From Rhodocyclaceae bacterium (GTDB lineage: Bacteria; Pseudomonadota; Gammaproteobacteria; Burkholderiales; Rhodocyclaceae): DNA of 64,000 bases. A program made the position numbers and the translations under genes. The notes under the pieces were generated by a model. The model saw only the letters and a list, made by a program, of their open reading frames with translations, was not told where the DNA came from and did not search any database. Positions 2,160-9,576 of the stretch are shown here, piece by piece (positions within the stretch are counted from its first letter, which is position 1; each line of letters begins with the position of its first letter). Location of the stretch: NCBI GenBank assembly GCA_016791115.1, contig JAEUNL010000062.1, positions 1 to 64,000 on the forward strand, written 5' to 3'.

Positions 2160-2417
2160 ATGAAGAAATTCTTACTGGTTTGCTCTGCATTGTTCCTGTT
2201 CGGTTCCGCAAGTGGTGCGCATGCGGCGGGGGGATCGTGGGGCGGTTTGTGCAACTGGATCCCTTTTCTTTGCAGCACGCCACCGAAGCCGCCCCAACCT
2301 TCCAACCCGCCGGTTGCGAGCGTGCCCGAGATTGATGCGTCGTCCGGCGCGAAGGCGATCGCCCTGCTTGCAGGTGCTCTGTTGCTCGCCTGGGAAGTAC
2401 GTCGCCGCCGCGCCTGA
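2160..2417 (+). CDS. VPEID-CTERM sorting-domain protein (exosortase E substrate)
   Basis: This is an 85-residue secreted protein. Residues 1-22 are a Sec signal (MKKFLLVCSALFLF...AHA). Only about 32 residues of mature sequence follow, Gly/Trp-rich then Pro-rich, with Cys31 and Cys38. The tail is VPEID (55-59), a hydrophobic helix (about 64-79) and RRRRA. This motif-helix-basic tripartite tail is the VPEID-CTERM variant of PEP-CTERM sorting signals, recognised by exosortase E. The next gene, 93 bases downstream, is exactly that enzyme. GAGG eight bases before the ATG supports the start. The mature function is unknown; the two cysteines could form a disulfide or link to another partner after sorting. 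Confidence 0.9.
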   Translation: MKKFLLVCSALFLFGSASGAHAAGGSWGGLCNWIPFLCSTPPKPPQPSNPPVASVPEIDASSGAKAIALLAGALLLAWEVRRRRA

Positions 2418-2510
2418 TCGTCGGTCCGCGTTGCACTGTCGCGTGGAAGCCGAACATCCCGTAGCCGGCAGCGCGACTTGAACAGCCCGCTCTTTCAGAC
2501 GATTTCAGCC

Positions 2511-4121
2511 ATGCAACACAGGTCGGGGTTCTCCCCGCCTGTGTTGCGATGGCTGCTGGTCGCAGCAGTTCTCCTGGTGGAACTGCTGGCAATGACGATT
2601 GCCTTCGAGACACCGGAAGGCCGCGGCGGTGGCGGGTTTGCCGATCTGCTTGTCGGTAACCTCGCGTTGATCGCCAAGACGCTGGTTGCGTTTTCGGCCT
2701 GCGTTTTCATCCTGGCGTTTCGGATGAACAGCGAAGTGAGGGCGGCGTTCCTGGTTCCGGGTGACAGGCTCTGGTCCGGGTGGCTTGCCCTGCATCTGGT
2801 CCTGATGTCCGTCTTCTGGTTCCTCACGGGGAATGTGCTGGGACCGACCCGCGAGGCATCCGTATCGCTGGTTGGCCTTTGGTTCCTGTCCGGGGGCCTC
2901 GCTGTCGCGCCCCTGCTTCTCATCGCAGCGCCGCTCGAATCATGGCGGTCAATCGCCAGGGCTTGGTCGCGCCCGATTCTTCTTTGCGGATGTGTCGCCA
3001 TCCTGATCGTGGCCTGCAGCACGATGGCACAACTGCTCTGGCCGCTGCTCGCCGAGATCACGCTCCAGTCGGTCAAGTGGATCCTGTCGGCCTTCTATCC
3101 GCTCGCCGACCACGGTTCGAAACACATCGTCGGAACCCTGTCTTTCGCGGTCGATGTTGCCCCGCAGTGTTCCGGCATCGAGGGGATCGGAATGATCCTC
3201 GTGTTTCTCGGCCTCTACGTCTGGATGTTTCGCGCGCAGTTGCGATTCCCGGCCGTCTTTTGGCTTTTCCCGATTGGCGTGATCGCAATCTGGACCGCAA
3301 ACGTTCTGCGCATCGTCACATTGATCGCGATCGGGTCGTCATTCTCGAGCGAGATTGCGCTTGGCGGCTTCCATTCCCAGGCGGGTTGGATCGGCTTCTG
3401 CGGCGTGTCGCTTGCGCTGATCCTGGTCGCGGATCGGGTTTCGCGCCCCCTAGGCCACGCAGTCGCCACCACGACGCGGGACACATCGGCTGCCAGCGTG
3501 CGCGCATTGCTCGTTCCGCTGATGGTGTCGCTCGGCGCCTCGATGCTGGTGGACGCTGCCTCGTCAGGCACGTTCCGGCATGGCTACCCGTTGATTGCAG
3601 TGGCCACATTGGCCGCTATCTGGTTCTACCGCGACCACTACCGCCGCCACCTTGGGCTACCGGACGCTGCAACGGTCGGCATCGCACTCGCCGTGTTCGT
3701 CGCCTGGCTGCTTCTCGTGCCGCCCGCCCCGGAACGCGGTGCGTTGCTGGCTGCCGACCTTCGCGAGTTGCCCCCGGGACTGCAGATCCTGTGGCTCGCC
3801 TTTCGCGTCGCAGGCTCGGTCATCGCGGTACCGATTGTCGAGGAGCTGGCATTTCGCGGGTACCTCCTGCCCCGTCTGGCCGGCCATCCGGCGGGAAATC
3901 TCGGCTTCGAGCGCACGCCCTGGCTGGCAGTCGTCGTATCGTCGGGCCTGTTCGGTCTGATGCACGCCAACTGGCTCGCGGGTTTCGTTGCGGGCGCGGG
4001 ATTCGCGTTCGCCCTGATTCGACGGAACCGGATGAGTGACGCAATATGGGCTCATGCGATTTGCAACGGCATGGTTGCGATTGCGGCGATCGCGTTCGGA
4101 CGATGGGATCTCTGGGGCTGA
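2511..4121 (+). CDS. xrtE: Exosortase E / CPBP-family intramembrane protease fusion (VPEID-CTERM system)
   Basis: This is a 536-residue polytopic membrane protein with two enzyme halves. The N-terminal half has the exosortase triad: Cys220 in APQCSGIEG, Arg267 in NVLRIVTL and His288 in GGFHSQAGW. The C-terminal half is a CPBP (CAAX-like) protease with the Glu pair 444-445 in EELAFRGY, His485 in LMHANW and His515 in AHAICNG. This fused architecture defines exosortase E/protease, which processes and sorts VPEID-CTERM proteins at the inner membrane; its substrate is encoded immediately upstream. The start is uncertain: ATG 2511 is preferred, but an in-frame TTG at 2478 adds 11 residues, and neither has a clear Shine-Dalgarno. 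Confidence 0.92.
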   Translation: MQHRSGFSPPVLRWLLVAAVLLVELLAMTIAFETPEGRGGGGFADLLVGNLALIAKTLVAFSACVFILAFRMNSEVRAAFLVPGDRLWSGWLALHLVLMSVFWFLTGNVLGPTREASVSLVGLWFLSGGLAVAPLLLIAAPLESWRSIARAWSRPILLCGCVAILIVACSTMAQLLWPLLAEITLQSVKWILSAFYPLADHGSKHIVGTLSFAVDVAPQCSGIEGIGMILVFLGLYVWMFRAQLRFPAVFWLFPIGVIAIWTANVLRIVTLIAIGSSFSSEIALGGFHSQAGWIGFCGVSLALILVADRVSRPLGHAVATTTRDTSAASVRALLVPLMVSLGASMLVDAASSGTFRHGYPLIAVATLAAIWFYRDHYRRHLGLPDAATVGIALAVFVAWLLLVPPAPERGALLAADLRELPPGLQILWLAFRVAGSVIAVPIVEELAFRGYLLPRLAGHPAGNLGFERTPWLAVVVSSGLFGLMHANWLAGFVAGAGFAFALIRRNRMSDAIWAHAICNGMVAIAAIAFGRWDLWG

Positions 4122-5040: not shown

Positions 5041-5961
5041 ATGATTCCTTCCGAACCTCGCCTGGCCGAGATCGCCACCCGGCCTTCGCGACTGCACCTG
5101 TGGTGGACCGCGGCGCGACCGCGCACGCTTTCGATCGCCCTGACACCGGTGGTGGTCGGCTGCGCAATCGCGTGGAGCGAAGGCGCAGCGCTGAATTTCC
5201 CGGTCTTTCTCGCCACCCTCGCCTGTGCGCTGCTGATCCAGATCGGCACCAACCTGCTCAACGATGTCGCCGATTTCGAGCGCGGCAACGATCGCCCGGA
5301 GCGGGTTGGCCCCCTGCGCGTCACTGCGGCCGGCTGGGCGACGCCGCGCCAGGTTCGGCGCGCCGGTGTGCTTGCTTTCGCGGCGGCTGCACTGTGCGGG
5401 CTCGGGTTGGTGATCCATGGCGGTGCAGCGATTCTCGCGCTGGGCTTCGCCTCGATCGCGGCCGGCTGGGCCTACTCGGGCGGCGTGAGGCCGGTTTCGC
5501 ATTCGCCCCTTGGCGAGTTGTTCGTTCTGGCGTTCTTCGGCATCGTCGCGGTGTGCGGCAGCCACTACCTGCAATCGGGCCGGCTGTCGGCAGTCGCGAT
5601 CGCAACGGGATTCGCACTTGGTGCGATGGCCGCAGCCGTGCTGCTGGTCAACAACCACCGCGACGTCGACGGTGACCGCAAGGCCGGGCGCCGCACGCTG
5701 GCGGCGGTGCTTGGCCCGGCACGTTCGCGTTCGCTGCATGCGGCGCTGATGCTGTTGCCGTTCGCGTTGCCGCTGTGGCTCGCCTTCGGTGTCCGATCCC
5801 ACGCGGCCACGCTGCTCGCTCTGCTCGCCTTGCCGCTTGCGCTGATCGCGATCCGCAACATGCGCAGCAAGCAGGGCGTCGCGCTCAATCCCGTGCTGGG
5901 CCAGACGGCGCTGGCCCAACTGGCGTTCGGCACGCTGCTCGCGATCGGAATGCTGCTGTGA
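5041..5961 (+). CDS. menA: 1,4-dihydroxy-2-naphthoate polyprenyltransferase (MenA, UbiA superfamily)
   Basis: This 306-residue integral membrane prenyltransferase has an N-terminal WWTAARPRTLSIALTP signature typical of MenA. The first Asp motif is NDVADFERG (Asn74, Asp75, Asp78) and the second is NNHRDVDGDRKAG near residue 205; both bind Mg and polyprenyl diphosphate. It attaches the isoprenoid tail to DHNA to make demethylmenaquinone. The methylation partner UbiE/MenG is encoded at 8827-9576. The presence of MenA indicates menaquinone use, which fits the quinol-linked N2O reductase cluster nearby. The ATG at 5041 overlaps the stop of a short upstream reading frame (4961-5044) that may be fortuitous. 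Confidence 0.9.
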   Translation: MIPSEPRLAEIATRPSRLHLWWTAARPRTLSIALTPVVVGCAIAWSEGAALNFPVFLATLACALLIQIGTNLLNDVADFERGNDRPERVGPLRVTAAGWATPRQVRRAGVLAFAAAALCGLGLVIHGGAAILALGFASIAAGWAYSGGVRPVSHSPLGELFVLAFFGIVAVCGSHYLQSGRLSAVAIATGFALGAMAAAVLLVNNHRDVDGDRKAGRRTLAAVLGPARSRSLHAALMLLPFALPLWLAFGVRSHAATLLALLALPLALIAIRNMRSKQGVALNPVLGQTALAQLAFGTLLAIGMLL

Positions 5962-6836
5962 CGCCGACGATCATCGACGTGCTGCTGCCGGCGGCGCTGG
6001 CCTGCATCATGTTCGCGCTCGGCATCACGCTGGTACCGGCAGATTTCACGCGGCTGCTGGAGCGTCCGCGCGCCGTTCTGGGCGGATTGTTCGGACAATT
6101 GATCGTGCTGCCGGCGGCCGCCTGGGCGCTGGCACTGGCGTTTCGCCTGCCGCCGGAGATGGCGGTCGGCTTGGTGATTCTCGGCGCCTGCCCTGGCGGT
6201 GCGAGTTCCGGGTTGATCACCTACCTCGCGCGCGGGGAAACCGCACTGTCGATCACGCTGACGGCAATCACCAGCCTCGTCGCGCTGGCCTCGGTGCCGC
6301 TGGTGGTCAATCTCGCACTGCAGACGTTTCTCGGCGCCGGCGGCGCGGTCGACCTGCCGGTGGGCCGGCTGGTACGCGGCGTGTTCTTCATCACCACGGT
6401 GCCGGTGGCTGCCGGCATGCTGCTCCGCGCCTGGCGCCCGGCCCTTGCGGCACGCATCGAACGGCCGGCAGGACGCATCGCGACGCTGCTGTTCCTGCTG
6501 ATCGTGATCGCAACCTTCGTGAGCCAGCGCGAGGCGCTGTTCGCCAACATGGGCAGCGTCGGTCCGGCGACCGCCACACTCAATGCGCTGGTAATGGGCG
6601 CTGGCGTCGCGATCGCTGCCCTGCTGCGCCTGTCGCGGCGCGACGCGATCGCGATTGCCGCGGAGTGCGGCCTGCAAAACGCGGCGCTCGGCATTTTCAT
6701 TGCTGCGACGGTGCTCGGCTCGCCGATGCTGGCGGTGCCGAGCGTGGTCTATGCGTTGCTGATGAACGTCGGTGCACTGGGGCTTATCGTCGTCGCGCGA
6801 CGCCTGGTTTCCCGCGCGAATCCGGTCAGAGCCTGA
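5958..6836 (+). CDS. Bile acid:sodium symporter (BASS)-family transporter
   Basis: This 292-residue protein has about nine or ten hydrophobic helices. The BASS signature GACPGGASSGLITYLARG lies near residues 75-92 and AAECGLQNAALG near residue 235, matching the two cross-over substrate/sodium-binding regions. The start is a GTG at 5958 whose bases overlap the menA stop (GTGA), so the two genes are translationally coupled. The substrate is unknown; family members carry organic anions such as pantoate, pyruvate or bile acids. It converges on, and overlaps by 11 bases, the 3' end of the outer-membrane gene at 6826-7830. Confidence 0.85.
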   Translation: MTPTIIDVLLPAALACIMFALGITLVPADFTRLLERPRAVLGGLFGQLIVLPAAAWALALAFRLPPEMAVGLVILGACPGGASSGLITYLARGETALSITLTAITSLVALASVPLVVNLALQTFLGAGGAVDLPVGRLVRGVFFITTVPVAAGMLLRAWRPALAARIERPAGRIATLLFLLIVIATFVSQREALFANMGSVGPATATLNALVMGAGVAIAALLRLSRRDAIAIAAECGLQNAALGIFIAATVLGSPMLAVPSVVYALLMNVGALGLIVVARRLVSRANPVRA

Positions 6837-7830
6837 AGAACAACTGCAACCAGAGCTTGTCGCCTTCCGCCTTGTTGCGGGCGCTCGTCTCGTGTTGCAG
6901 CTTGGCGCTGACACCCCAACCGTCGCCGCGATAGGTCAGTTGCGGCCCGTAGGCGAACACGTGCGCGCGCCGGCCGGTGCCGGCCACGGCGCTACCGTCG
7001 ATCTCGTCGTCGGTGAGTTGATGCTGCAGGTAGCCATTGACGCCGACGAACAGCCGCGGCACGAGGCGCAGATTGAGCGAGTAGTCGAGGCCCGACTCGA
7101 TGCCCGATTCGTAATCGGTATCGGGGTTGCGGCCATTGACCGTGAGCATCGCGCGCAGGTTGGCATCGACGCGCTCGCCGACCTGCGTCGTGACGGCGAC
7201 ATAAGGCGTCGCGGCGTACTGGTTGCGCCCCGGGTTGAACAGGCGGGTGCGCGAGTACTCGCCGGTGGGCAGGGTGAAGTCGACGCCGGTCAGCGCGTGC
7301 CAGCCGGCGCCGTGCCAGCCGATCATCACGCCGGCCGTGAGGTCGCCGAAGGCCGAGGCATCCCCTTCCGCGCGCCCGAGATCGATGCGCCCCTCGATCC
7401 ACGGCTGGGCGAGCAGCCAGGCGAACTCGCCGCCGAGCGGCCGAACCGAATCGGCAACCTGCAGCAGGCGCAGCGTGTGGGCGTGCACCGACGCACGGAA
7501 GTGCGGCAGCGCGGATTCGCCGCGGTCATCGCGCGTGGTGTCGGCGCTGTACCAGGCGTTGTAGTTGTAGAGGTAGGTTCCGGCCTTTGGCAGCACGCCG
7601 CTGGCGACGGTGTTGAGGCCATAGGGATAGACGCTGCCACCGCCTTCGGTGGCGCACGCCGGGGTGGCAGCCATCGAAATCGCTGCCGCAAGAATCGACG
7701 CGATACCAGCCTGCAGGGCGCATGGAATGGCGATCCTGGGCCAGCCATGCCGCAGACGCCCACCGGACGGACGTCTCACGGCATGATGGCCTGCAGCCCA
7801 GCATCCACGCGCCTTCCAGGCAGGCTTCAT
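6826..7830 (-). CDS. Outer-membrane beta-barrel protein, MetA-pathway/phenol-degradation transporter type
   Basis: This is a 334-residue product with signal-like residues 40-62 (LQAGIASILAAAISM...ACA) followed by a beta-rich barrel. Alternating strands include GVMIGWHGAGWHALTGVDF, LFVGVNGYLQHQL and AKLQHETS, and the C-terminal residue after LQLFF is Leu. This resembles the transporter family named for meta-pathway phenol degradation. The ATG overlaps the stop of the 114-residue gene upstream (ATGA), which supports translation from 7830. That start leaves an abnormally long Arg-rich n-region of about 35 residues, all encoded by a repeat element (7709-7821). The true start or exported form is therefore uncertain. 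It is the last gene of the ubiE-cytochrome-114 aa-barrel string. Confidence 0.7.
   Translation of the reverse strand: MKPAWKARGCWAAGHHAVRRPSGGRLRHGWPRIAIPCALQAGIASILAAAISMAATPACATEGGGSVYPYGLNTVASGVLPKAGTYLYNYNAWYSADTTRDDRGESALPHFRASVHAHTLRLLQVADSVRPLGGEFAWLLAQPWIEGRIDLGRAEGDASAFGDLTAGVMIGWHGAGWHALTGVDFTLPTGEYSRTRLFNPGRNQYAATPYVAVTTQVGERVDANLRAMLTVNGRNPDTDYESGIESGLDYSLNLRLVPRLFVGVNGYLQHQLTDDEIDGSAVAGTGRRAHVFAYGPQLTYRGDGWGVSAKLQHETSARNKAEGDKLWLQLFFRL
7709..7821. repeat. Dispersed inverted-repeat element, copy A
   Basis: This 113-bp element has terminal arms GCCTGCAGGGCGCATGGA (7709-7726) and TCCACGCGCCTTCCAGGC (7804-7821), complementary at 15 of 18 positions. An inner pair GCCATGCCG / CGGCATGATGGC is also inverted. 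The copy lies inside the 5' end of the outer-membrane barrel gene. Related copies are at 26322, 37545, 42855, 55154 and 56387. Confidence 0.65.
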
Positions 7831-8171
7831 TCCGGCGACGTGGCATGCATCAATTCGTTGCAGGTACCGCGCGCAAAGGCGTCGGCCTTCTTCGGGCTCG
7901 AAATCTGCGGTTCGTCGTAGATGCGCTTGATGATGTGGTTGATGACGCGCGGGCCGTCGCTGCCGTCCTCTTCGAACAGCTTCATCGGCTTGCCCTTCTC
8001 GCGGTCGTTGAAGGCCTGCATGGCAAAGTCGCGCACGCGGTTGCAGAAGCGGATCTTCTGCGCGTCGGGCATGTCGTCGCCGACCTGGCCCGGATGGCCG
8101 TGCGCCCGTGCGGACTGCGCCGCGCACAGCACGGCGGCGGATGCGGCCATGACGAGCAATGTGCGCCTCAT
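7827..8171 (-). CDS. Small periplasmic two-cysteine protein of unknown function
   Basis: I do not recognise this 114-residue protein. Residues 1-23 form a Sec signal (MRRTLLVMAASAAVL...ARA), so it is probably periplasmic. The mature part is predicted mostly helical and contains exactly two cysteines, Cys43 and Cys104, in no CXXCH pattern, so haem attachment is not indicated. It overlaps the di-haem cytochrome upstream and the barrel gene downstream by four bases each (ATGA). This tight coupling suggests joint function with the cytochrome. A similar-sized two-Cys protein lies at 10241-10588 in the same gene string. Confidence 0.7.
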   Translation of the reverse strand: MRRTLLVMAASAAVLCAAQSARAHGHPGQVGDDMPDAQKIRFCNRVRDFAMQAFNDREKGKPMKLFEEDGSDGPRVINHIIKRIYDEPQISSPKKADAFARGTCNELMHATSPE

Positions 8172-8830
8172 TCCGTCGGCTCCTGCAGCGTGGTGAGGTA
8201 GGCGAGGATGTCGTGCAGATCCTTTTCCTGCAGCGTGTTGAGGATGCCGGTCTTGCCTTCCTCGTCGTGCGGGCGGTCGCCCTTGATGTAGAGATCCATC
8301 TGCCGCTTGAGGTAGTTGGTGTACTGGCCCACCAGCATCGGAAACTTGCCGCGCCCGCGGCCGTTCTTCGCGTGGCACGTATGGCACTGCTTCTGGAAGA
8401 TCGCCTTGCCGTTCTCGACGTCGCCTTCGGCGCGCGGGATGATCATCACCTTGTCGGCCATCAGCAGCTTGGTCAGCGCATCTTCGTTGCCGGTGAAGGT
8501 CGGCATCTTGGTCGGCAGCTCGACGCTGGCGAGATAGGCGGCGACGGCCTTGATGTCCTCGTCGGGCAGCTCGCGCTCCTGCGTGTAGGGGAACATCGGG
8601 ATGTTGATGCGCGTGCGCGAACGGAAACTGCGCAACTGGTCCTCGATGTAGCCGGCGCGCTGGCCGCCGATGCGCGGGTACTCGCCCTTCTTGCCGCCCT
8701 GCCCGAATTCGCCATGACAGGCAGCACAGGTGCCGTTGATCTCCTTGCCCTTCTCGAGATCGTCTGCCAGAACTGGCGCGGCGGCGCACAGCAGCGCAGC
8801 AACGAGCGCCCGACAGGATTTCTTGTTCAT
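8168..8830 (-). CDS. Di-haem cytochrome c (c4/class I type), periplasmic
   Basis: This 220-residue protein has a Sec signal cleaved near residue 22 (VLADD). Haem sites are CAACH (35-39) and CHTCH (149-153). Downstream Met residues (for example in NIPMFPYTQ and KFPMLVGQ) could be axial ligands. The two-domain layout matches cytochrome c4-like electron carriers of the periplasm. It is coupled by ATGA overlaps to ubiE upstream and to the 114-residue gene downstream. The context suggests electron transfer between the quinol pool or bc1 complex and NosZ or a terminal oxidase; the partner is inferred. Confidence 0.88.
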   Translation of the reverse strand: MNKKSCRALVAALLCAAAPVLADDLEKGKEINGTCAACHGEFGQGGKKGEYPRIGGQRAGYIEDQLRSFRSRTRINIPMFPYTQERELPDEDIKAVAAYLASVELPTKMPTFTGNEDALTKLLMADKVMIIPRAEGDVENGKAIFQKQCHTCHAKNGRGRGKFPMLVGQYTNYLKRQMDLYIKGDRPHDEEGKTGILNTLQEKDLHDILAYLTTLQEPTE

Positions 8831-9576
8831 GCGGAAACCTCGCTGGAAGTGGCGCGCGTGCCGAAATGCAGGCAGGCGATGCCGAATGAAAGATTGCGCC
8901 AGCGCACGTCACCGAATCCGGCATCGCGCATCAGCGCGGCGAATTCGCGCTGGTCGGGAAAGCGGCGGATCGATTCGATCAGGTAGTGGTAGGCGGCCGG
9001 CTGGCGCGCCACCCAGGCGCCGAGGCGCGGAATGACGAGAAACGAGTACAGGTCGTAGAACGGCTTGAGCCAGAAGTGCGGGCGCGAGAACTCGAGGCAG
9101 ACGAAGCGGCCGCCCGGTTTGAGCACGCGGCGAATCTCGCGCAGCGCGTCGCGCGGACTCGTTGCGTTGCGCAGGCCGAAGGAAATCGTCACCAGGTCGA
9201 CCGAAGCATCGGCCAGCGGCAGCGACTCGGCCTCGCCGGCGATCCAGCCAATGCGCTCGCCCGCGGCATCGCGCGCGCGGCCCGCCTGCATCATCGCCAG
9301 GCTCGGATCGCACACCCAGACGCTGCGTTCGCCCTCGCGCGCGAGCAGGCGCGCAACGTCGCCGGTGCCGCCGGCGAGATCGACCGCCACGCCACGCTTC
9401 ACGCCCGCCACGTCGCGCGCCAGCCGGCGCTTCCACAGGCGGTGGATGCCGAAGCTCATGAGGTCGTTCATCAGGTCGTAGCGCGGCGCAACGCCCTCGA
9501 ACACCGCGCGTATGCGGCTTTGCCGCTCCTGCGGCGTGACGTCGCGATAGCCGAAGCTGTTCTCCAGCAGCGCCAT
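8827..9576 (-). CDS. ubiE: Demethylmenaquinone / ubiquinone C-methyltransferase (UbiE/MenG)
   Basis: This 249-residue class I SAM methyltransferase has FGYRDVTPQERQ at the N-terminus, SAM motif VDLAGGTGDVA, SFGLRNATS after strand 5 and LKPGGRFVCLEFS, all hallmarks of UbiE. In quinone synthesis it methylates demethylmenaquinone, and 2-polyprenyl-6-methoxy-benzoquinol in the ubiquinone branch. MenA at 5041 makes the menaquinone substrate. It is unusual to find ubiE placed between a SCO/TlpA copper module and a cytochrome c gene; it overlaps the latter by four bases (ATGA). The usual ubiE-ubiJ-ubiB context is absent here. Confidence 0.92.
   Translation of the reverse strand: MALLENSFGYRDVTPQERQSRIRAVFEGVAPRYDLMNDLMSFGIHRLWKRRLARDVAGVKRGVAVDLAGGTGDVARLLAREGERSVWVCDPSLAMMQAGRARDAAGERIGWIAGEAESLPLADASVDLVTISFGLRNATSPRDALREIRRVLKPGGRFVCLEFSRPHFWLKPFYDLYSFLVIPRLGAWVARQPAAYHYLIESIRRFPDQREFAALMRDAGFGDVRWRNLSFGIACLHFGTRATSSEVSA

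Follow-up and report, generated by a model that had tools for sequence, protein, structure and literature searches.

Two described sorting systems stand closest to the locus analyzed here. The VPEID-CTERM/exosortase E (XrtE) system is defined by the profile models TIGR04161 and TIGR04162, and the PEP-CTERM/exosortase A system (PF07589, XrtA) resembles it in the three-part build of its C-terminal tag and in having a homologous exosortase half. A third system, that of myxosortase MrtX, relies on a CPBP sorting enzyme that has no exosortase part. According to the accessible sections of PMC11980579, the CPBP family cuts and sorts C-terminal tags in Myxococcus; MrtX is a CPBP-family protease acting in surface anchoring on a tag made up of a motif, a helix and an Arg-rich end, and the motif contains a Cys required for cleavage. 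XrtE differs from MrtX in that its CPBP half is fused to an exosortase half and in that the VPEID motif has no Cys. Rhombosortase and its single GlyGly-CTERM protein offer a further parallel, being one enzyme with one target, often encoded side by side (PMC3237569, in excerpt), although this enzyme family is unrelated to XrtE.

The literature searched, which did not include the 2012 archaeosortase/exosortase paper, yielded no description of the function of a VPEID-CTERM product. The terms "VPEID-CTERM" and "exosortase E" do not occur in it, and none of the matches listed contained "VPEID" or "XrtE," or "thioester domain" together with "exosortase." The interest of the locus lies in its comparative pattern: tiny or nearly empty substrates are usual, their cysteines are paired, and in one clade their genes are linked to thioester adhesins.

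The VPEID-CTERM/XrtE pair

The window is the whole stretch of DNA that was analyzed, 64 kb of a Rhodocyclaceae contig. The pair and its parts are located as follows.

2160..2417, + strand: VPEID-CTERM mini-protein gene, 85 aa (TIGR04161, 61.9 bits, cut-off 33)
2160..2225, + strand: predicted signal peptide, residues 1-22, cut between AHA and AGG (by eye)
2226..2321, + strand: predicted mature part, residues 23-54, with Cys31, Cys38 and a Pro-rich stretch (boundaries inferred)
2322..2414, + strand: VPEID-CTERM tag, consisting of motif, membrane helix and RRRR tail (TIGR04161 match coordinates)
2511..4121, + strand: xrtE, exosortase E/CPBP protease fusion, 536 aa (TIGR04162, 211.6 bits, cut-off 150)
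2700..3431, + strand: exosortase half, residues 64-307, with Cys220, Arg267 and His288 (PF09721 match; residues invariant)
3792..4073, + strand: CPBP (Rce1-like) half, residues 428-521, with Glu444, Glu445, His485 and His515 (PF02517 match; residues invariant)

The mini-protein reading frame runs from the ATG at 2160 to the stop ending at 2417, and the TIGR04161 match, above the curated cut-off, spans residues 55-85 of 85. Its signal peptide is clear by eye and holds a third cysteine, Cys8, leaving a predicted mature part of 32 residues. The ATG of xrtE at 2511 lies 93 bases past the mini gene; an alternative TTG start at 2478 would give a protein of 547 aa. The TIGR04162 match covers profile positions 56-515 of 516, and XrtE also scores above the cut-offs of TIGR04178 (59.8 bits, cut-off 23), PF02517 (56.9, cut-off 22.4) and PF09721 (34, cut-off 25.7). 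The four CPBP residues and the three of the exosortase half, which we take to be catalytic, are invariant in 28 of 28 and 37 of 37 aligned XrtE proteins (overlapping sets). No significant fold match was found in the PDB for the model of the whole XrtE protein (mean pLDDT 88.4; best E 4.3).

The sequence-only reading had described an 85-residue VPEID-CTERM protein, with a mature part of about 32 residues and two cysteines, encoded 93 bases before a fused exosortase E/CPBP protease that has all predicted catalytic residues, both families being known. Profile scores, translation and coordinates agree with this description, the mature boundary being set by eye, and all seven predicted catalytic residues are kept in aligned relatives. 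With both models over their cut-offs, the genes adjacent and these residues conserved, the pair almost certainly belongs to the VPEID-CTERM/XrtE system. Nothing essential sets it apart; the mature sequence alone is specific to this locus, which is a regular member of the named family, with a tiny substrate that is usual rather than special.

TIGR04161 finds one match in the window's own assembly (3.97 Mb, 73 contigs, 92.5% complete), and a broad tag model likewise finds one clear match (2.5e-13). The next broad-tag match (0.014, contig C54) covers model positions 8-30 only and not the motif, and two more are weaker (0.48 and 0.52); no tagged protein was seen in the open frames around these weak matches, the frame of each match being unsettled. 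The single VPEID tag contrasts with PEP-CTERM species, which often have twenty or more PEP-CTERM proteins according to the excerpted text of PMC3237569. The genome also holds another exosortase match and, on the same contig, a lone CPBP protein (G000:C60:111764-119888, contig 60), as well as eight PF07589 PEP-CTERM matches over the cut-off. The second exosortase and the PEP-CTERM matches are most simply read as a separate system of exosortase A type. The locus had been called self-contained, which is apt for the enzyme and substrate pair but not for the genome, given these further sorting genes.

Substrate size across XrtE loci

We examined 113 stretches, the window included, of which 108 contain XrtE; they were collected through XrtE or tag searches, and the frequencies given here are not those of nature. 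A tag-like gene lies within 2.5 kb of XrtE at 88 of the 108 loci, and none was recognized at the other 20. Three matches that fell by chance in an unrelated gene (L175-L177) were removed, and 100 tagged ORFs were kept. Ninety-one small ones, from 85 loci and with 88 distinct mature parts, were counted, and nine large ones from L098, L104 and L109 were set aside. Mature boundaries were set by a simple rule, with 37 placed by hand and two special cases (L118 and L147).

The tagged neighbor is tiny at 85 of the 88 loci. Counted from predicted signal peptide to tag, the 88 distinct peptides have a median of 20 residues and range from 0 to 49. The emphasis on a very small substrate was thus right about the mature part, but this size is not peculiar to the locus. 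Substrates of this kind turn up in every major part of the XrtE tree. The NCBIfam tag model misses them: all six that were tested score under its cut-off, and two others carry a hypothetical-protein annotation.

The large substrates of L098, L104 and L109 have 250-378 residues as counted, and no mini gene was recognized at these loci. L098 comes from G452, a Rhodocyclaceae MAG that provides the nearest XrtE relative, and there (5449-8896) three large tandem proteins of 283, 302 and 362 aa carry PEIDPASG tags ahead of xrtE. XrtE is therefore not limited to mini-peptides, as its nearest relative adjoins three large tagged proteins. These proteins have no Pfam match, and the idea that a large G452 substrate might be a cysteine protease of known type was rejected for that reason.

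At the other extreme, five of the 91 small ORFs keep only 0-4 mature residues. In Methylomicrobium (L124, 8537-8701) three residues separate the predicted signal peptide from the APEMD motif, and similarly empty forms are found at L105 (1195-1383), L111 (1401-1670) and L118 (991-1523).

Ten ORFs at eight loci have no signal peptide by eye (L071 at 7288-8258, L135, L140, L152, L173, L175, L176 and L177); their N-termini are mostly aromatic. PEP-CTERM proteins always have a signal peptide according to the portion of PMC3237569 consulted, and several XrtE substrates seem to depart from the rule as given there.

Distribution and XrtE tree

The tag was found in 3 of 398 genomes of a phylum sample. 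XrtE is rare in the window's order, where 2 of 250 genomes have it over the cut-off. It is rare in the window's family as well: 9 of 297 genomes match the XrtE protein at 1e-10, three of them over most of its length: the window's own genome, G452 (44%) and G865 (33%). No recognizable tag was seen in G865.

In a sample of 248 genomes from one alpha-proteobacterial family, the tag (E 0.001) is present in 31, in 22 of them over the cut-off, and XrtE over the cut-off in 32. Both occur together in 29 genomes, XrtE only in three, the tag only in two and neither in 214, such that 29 of the 31 tag-bearing genomes also have XrtE. The three XrtE-only genomes have variant tags (VPEV, APEIN) near XrtE; at L182 (8838-12588), from a genome with XrtE, VPEV-type tags are carried by larger proteins near xrtE.

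A scan of named genomes with the XrtE alignment gave 202 confirmed XrtE loci, the best 80 of which include Rhodocyclaceae, Methylococcaceae, other Gammaproteobacteria, Myxococcales, Planctomycetota, Acidobacteria and many Rhodobacteraceae. In an XrtE tree of 106 rows, built by a quick method (LG+G4 without a mixture model, with long-branch warnings), the window groups with beta-, gamma- and unclassified proteobacterial sequences in a set of 12 rows (SH-aLRT 98).

Cysteines and composition of the mini-peptides

The 88 distinct peptides (91 ORFs) share no conserved mature sequence, and their composition is very different. Their cysteines follow a simpler pattern: 64 peptides have none, 23 have exactly two and one has a single cysteine. 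Shuffling residues at the same lengths would give 7.5 peptides with two cysteines and 26.9 with an odd count, for which the minimum in 5000 shuffles was 13; this procedure does not remove the relatedness among the peptides. Two-cysteine peptides make up 11 of 21 in the clade with adhesins described below and 12 of 67 outside it, with odd counts of 0 and 1. Judged by eye, two-cysteine peptides are found in distinct regions of the tree, and 2-30 residues lie between the two cysteines. Because the cysteines are paired, the mature parts appear to be under selection.

Conservation of Cys31, Cys38 and the tag motif had been proposed as a check on the sequence-only reading. The motif is kept in the form PE-I/V/L/M. 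The two cysteines are not conserved as positions; what recurs is the presence of two cysteines or none, a comparison drawn from distant relatives, as G452 has large substrates and G865 has no recognizable tag. The pattern of cysteine pairs nevertheless suggests that Cys31 and Cys38 probably form a disulfide. By eye, the mature part of the window most closely resembles the Cys-loop heads of L116, L071, L084, L065 and L168, which belong to the group that has no adjoining adhesin.

Thioester adhesins in one clade

Thioester-domain proteins contain a Cys motif and a Cys-Gln thioester, and most Gram-positive thioester domains lie near the N-terminus, after the secretion signal (PMC8092201, in excerpt). 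At 24 alpha loci, the mini gene is immediately preceded on its strand by a gene for a large protein with a common C-terminal region; this upstream gene ends 279-360 bases before the mini gene end. Two of these loci, L083 and L158, encode identical mature peptides. A thioester-region model is matched at full length at all 24. An invariant Cys and Gln-x-Ala-Ile-Trp are present in each of the 23 aligned adhesin ends, 17 of which also match Pfam TED (E 0.01). AlphaFold modeled the region with moderate confidence (mean pLDDT 68.8); the eight best PDB fold matches to this model are streptococcal thioester domains, six with E values of 0.001 or lower. The three adhesins scanned whole (L079, L083 and L198) contain SdrD_B and Ig-like domains. 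The adhesins of these relatives, though not the window, thus share the Cys and Gln features and the best fold matches of Gram-positive thioester adhesins. They differ in the C-terminal position of the domain and in showing no signal peptide by eye.

The proteins, placed directly upstream of a mini VPEIS/VPEID gene, were seen at L079, L081-L083, L085-L093, L119, L133, L146, L149 and L151, and further at L153, L154, L156, L158-L160, L166, L174, L196 and L198; those of most loci end in DCLC or similar.

One set in the XrtE tree (SH-aLRT 100) contains 30 rows, and 23 of these are adhesin loci. Of the seven other rows, L147 and L163 lack the adhesin but have a mini gene, and the remaining five show neither gene in the stretch examined. 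In these data, the thioester adhesin is limited to this one XrtE clade. Full-length copies are present in 15 of the 248 alpha genomes, and in 13 of the 15 they are accompanied by XrtE over the cut-off or by the tag, with the adhesin adjoining the tag gene; the co-occurrence is partly circular, the adhesin model having been built from XrtE-adjacent genes. Genome G624 has no XrtE match, yet its adhesin gene (L179, 3016-7580) is followed by one for a 183-residue VPLPA-CTERM protein (tag score 26.7, cut-off 25.35), with a Wzz chain-length gene adjoining. Here the tag type has changed while the pairing persists, which is, as a single case, the strongest indication that the adhesin requires a partner with a C-terminal tag. 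In genome G683, the adhesin (L178, 1393-6783; 1796 residues) has no tagged neighbor in view, and the genome contains no XrtE or tag match.

On a Rhodobacter plasmid the gene order is type I secretion ATPase, HlyD, an SdrD B-like protein, a 64-residue tagged "hypothetical protein" and xrtE. An HlyD-like gene occurs at 1 of the 24 adhesin loci, and type I secretion of the adhesins is a guess. The adhesin model has no match in the window's 64 kb, and in the window's genome it gives partial matches only (model positions 2-54 and 19-51 of 262); Pfam TED finds none in that genome, in a search that had no control match.

Proposed role

As a whole, we propose that the locus encodes a one-enzyme, one-substrate pair whose peptide is exported, cut and probably transferred, and then serves as a docking or retention point for an exported macromolecule; we give this reading a probability of about 45%. 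From the identities of the two proteins we infer the steps of export, cleavage, transfer, disulfide formation and docking. The signal peptide would export the 85-residue precursor, which the tag helix would hold in the membrane with the RRRR tail in the cytoplasm. The Cys/Arg/His site of XrtE would then cut at the VPEID tag, and the exosortase half would probably pass the new C-terminus to an acceptor in the membrane or envelope. Transfer is proposed because processing by archaeosortase A is accompanied by lipid anchoring of the processed proteins (PMC7157517, in the portion consulted). The CPBP half would probably make a second cut or clear the tag remnant. The product would be an envelope peptide of 30 to 40 residues in which a proline-rich stalk carries a small aromatic loop that the Cys31-Cys38 disulfide probably closes. 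It would most likely serve in docking or retaining another exported macromolecule, and not as an enzyme, coat or diffusible signal.

The adhesin neighbors are the one positive functional clue and hint at surface anchoring. Because they adjoin the tiny gene in one clade, a surface docking peptide is favored over a diffusible signal or cofactor; for the window, this role is carried over by analogy, as the adhesin is absent from the window and its genome. The mature part of 0-4 residues in some relatives leaves little to dock with and therefore argues against docking. Other points against it are the restriction of the adhesin to one XrtE clade, the large tagged substrates of the nearest XrtE relative, the 20 XrtE loci with no recognized tagged gene, the adhesin of L178 with no tagged neighbor in view and the moderate quality of the thioester-region model. 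A more sweeping version, which we consider doubtful, takes the mini-substrates to be nearly empty, envelope-fixed sorting proteins whose sole job would be to hold a separately exported giant protein. The client in the alpha clade would be the thioester adhesin, and the window pair would be of the same kind, with its client unlinked. If true, anchoring in these Gram-negative bacteria would be split between two gene products, one the anchor and the other the protein that it holds. The comparison makes the role of the VPEID product testable, the question being whether the mini-peptide holds the thioester adhesin.

Other roles can be weighed against docking. Cleavage of the tag by XrtE and its CPBP half might let a short peptide out of the cell or lead to its further modification, which would make the mini-protein the precursor of a released signal or of a cofactor, roles suggested in the sequence-only reading. 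The tiny product, the mostly single substrate per genome and an intramembrane-protease half that could release a peptide are all consistent with this. We nonetheless regard it as unlikely, as the lack of a conserved mature sequence is unlike the needs of a cofactor precursor or a shared receptor, and exosortase-type tags are otherwise tied to surface attachment. Slightly less likely still is a surface-active or coating peptide, of which many short, aromatic, Gly/Ser/Pro-rich copies would alter the hydrophobicity, polysaccharide binding or membrane activity of the surface. Peptides whose gene is convergent with xrtE do fit such a role, since they are rich in Trp (10.3% of residues; 32 of 40 distinct peptides), as does a Leisingera plasmid on which xrtE and a VPEID-CTERM gene lie inside a polysaccharide cluster without an adhesin. 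Trp is absent, however, from the adhesin-clade peptides (0 of 21), the window peptide has only two, and some forms are very short.

Those nearly empty forms, amounting to little but signal peptide and tag, could also be read as companions of XrtE that assemble, activate or regulate the enzyme, with a mature part that matters little, and the usual adjacency of the mini gene to xrtE agrees with this. The idea is improbable in view of the large-substrate loci (L098, L104 and L109) that have no recognized mini gene, the 20 of 108 XrtE loci that have no recognized tagged gene nearby, and the selection on mature parts implied by cysteine pairing. We consider even less probable that the mini-protein is a vestige, the non-functional remnant of a formerly larger substrate. 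The very short, fast-changing mature parts would suit a remnant, whereas the spread of mini forms over all major parts of the XrtE tree and the paired cysteines speak against one; the tag, too, is always intact, although this follows from how the genes were found. The docking reading remains the one we prefer.

Transporter genes accompany part of the convergent group. RND-type genes lie on the far side of the mini gene at L064, L065, L069-L071, L074, L136, L140, L152 and L173, and at some loci of this group an ABC exporter is encoded upstream of xrtE.
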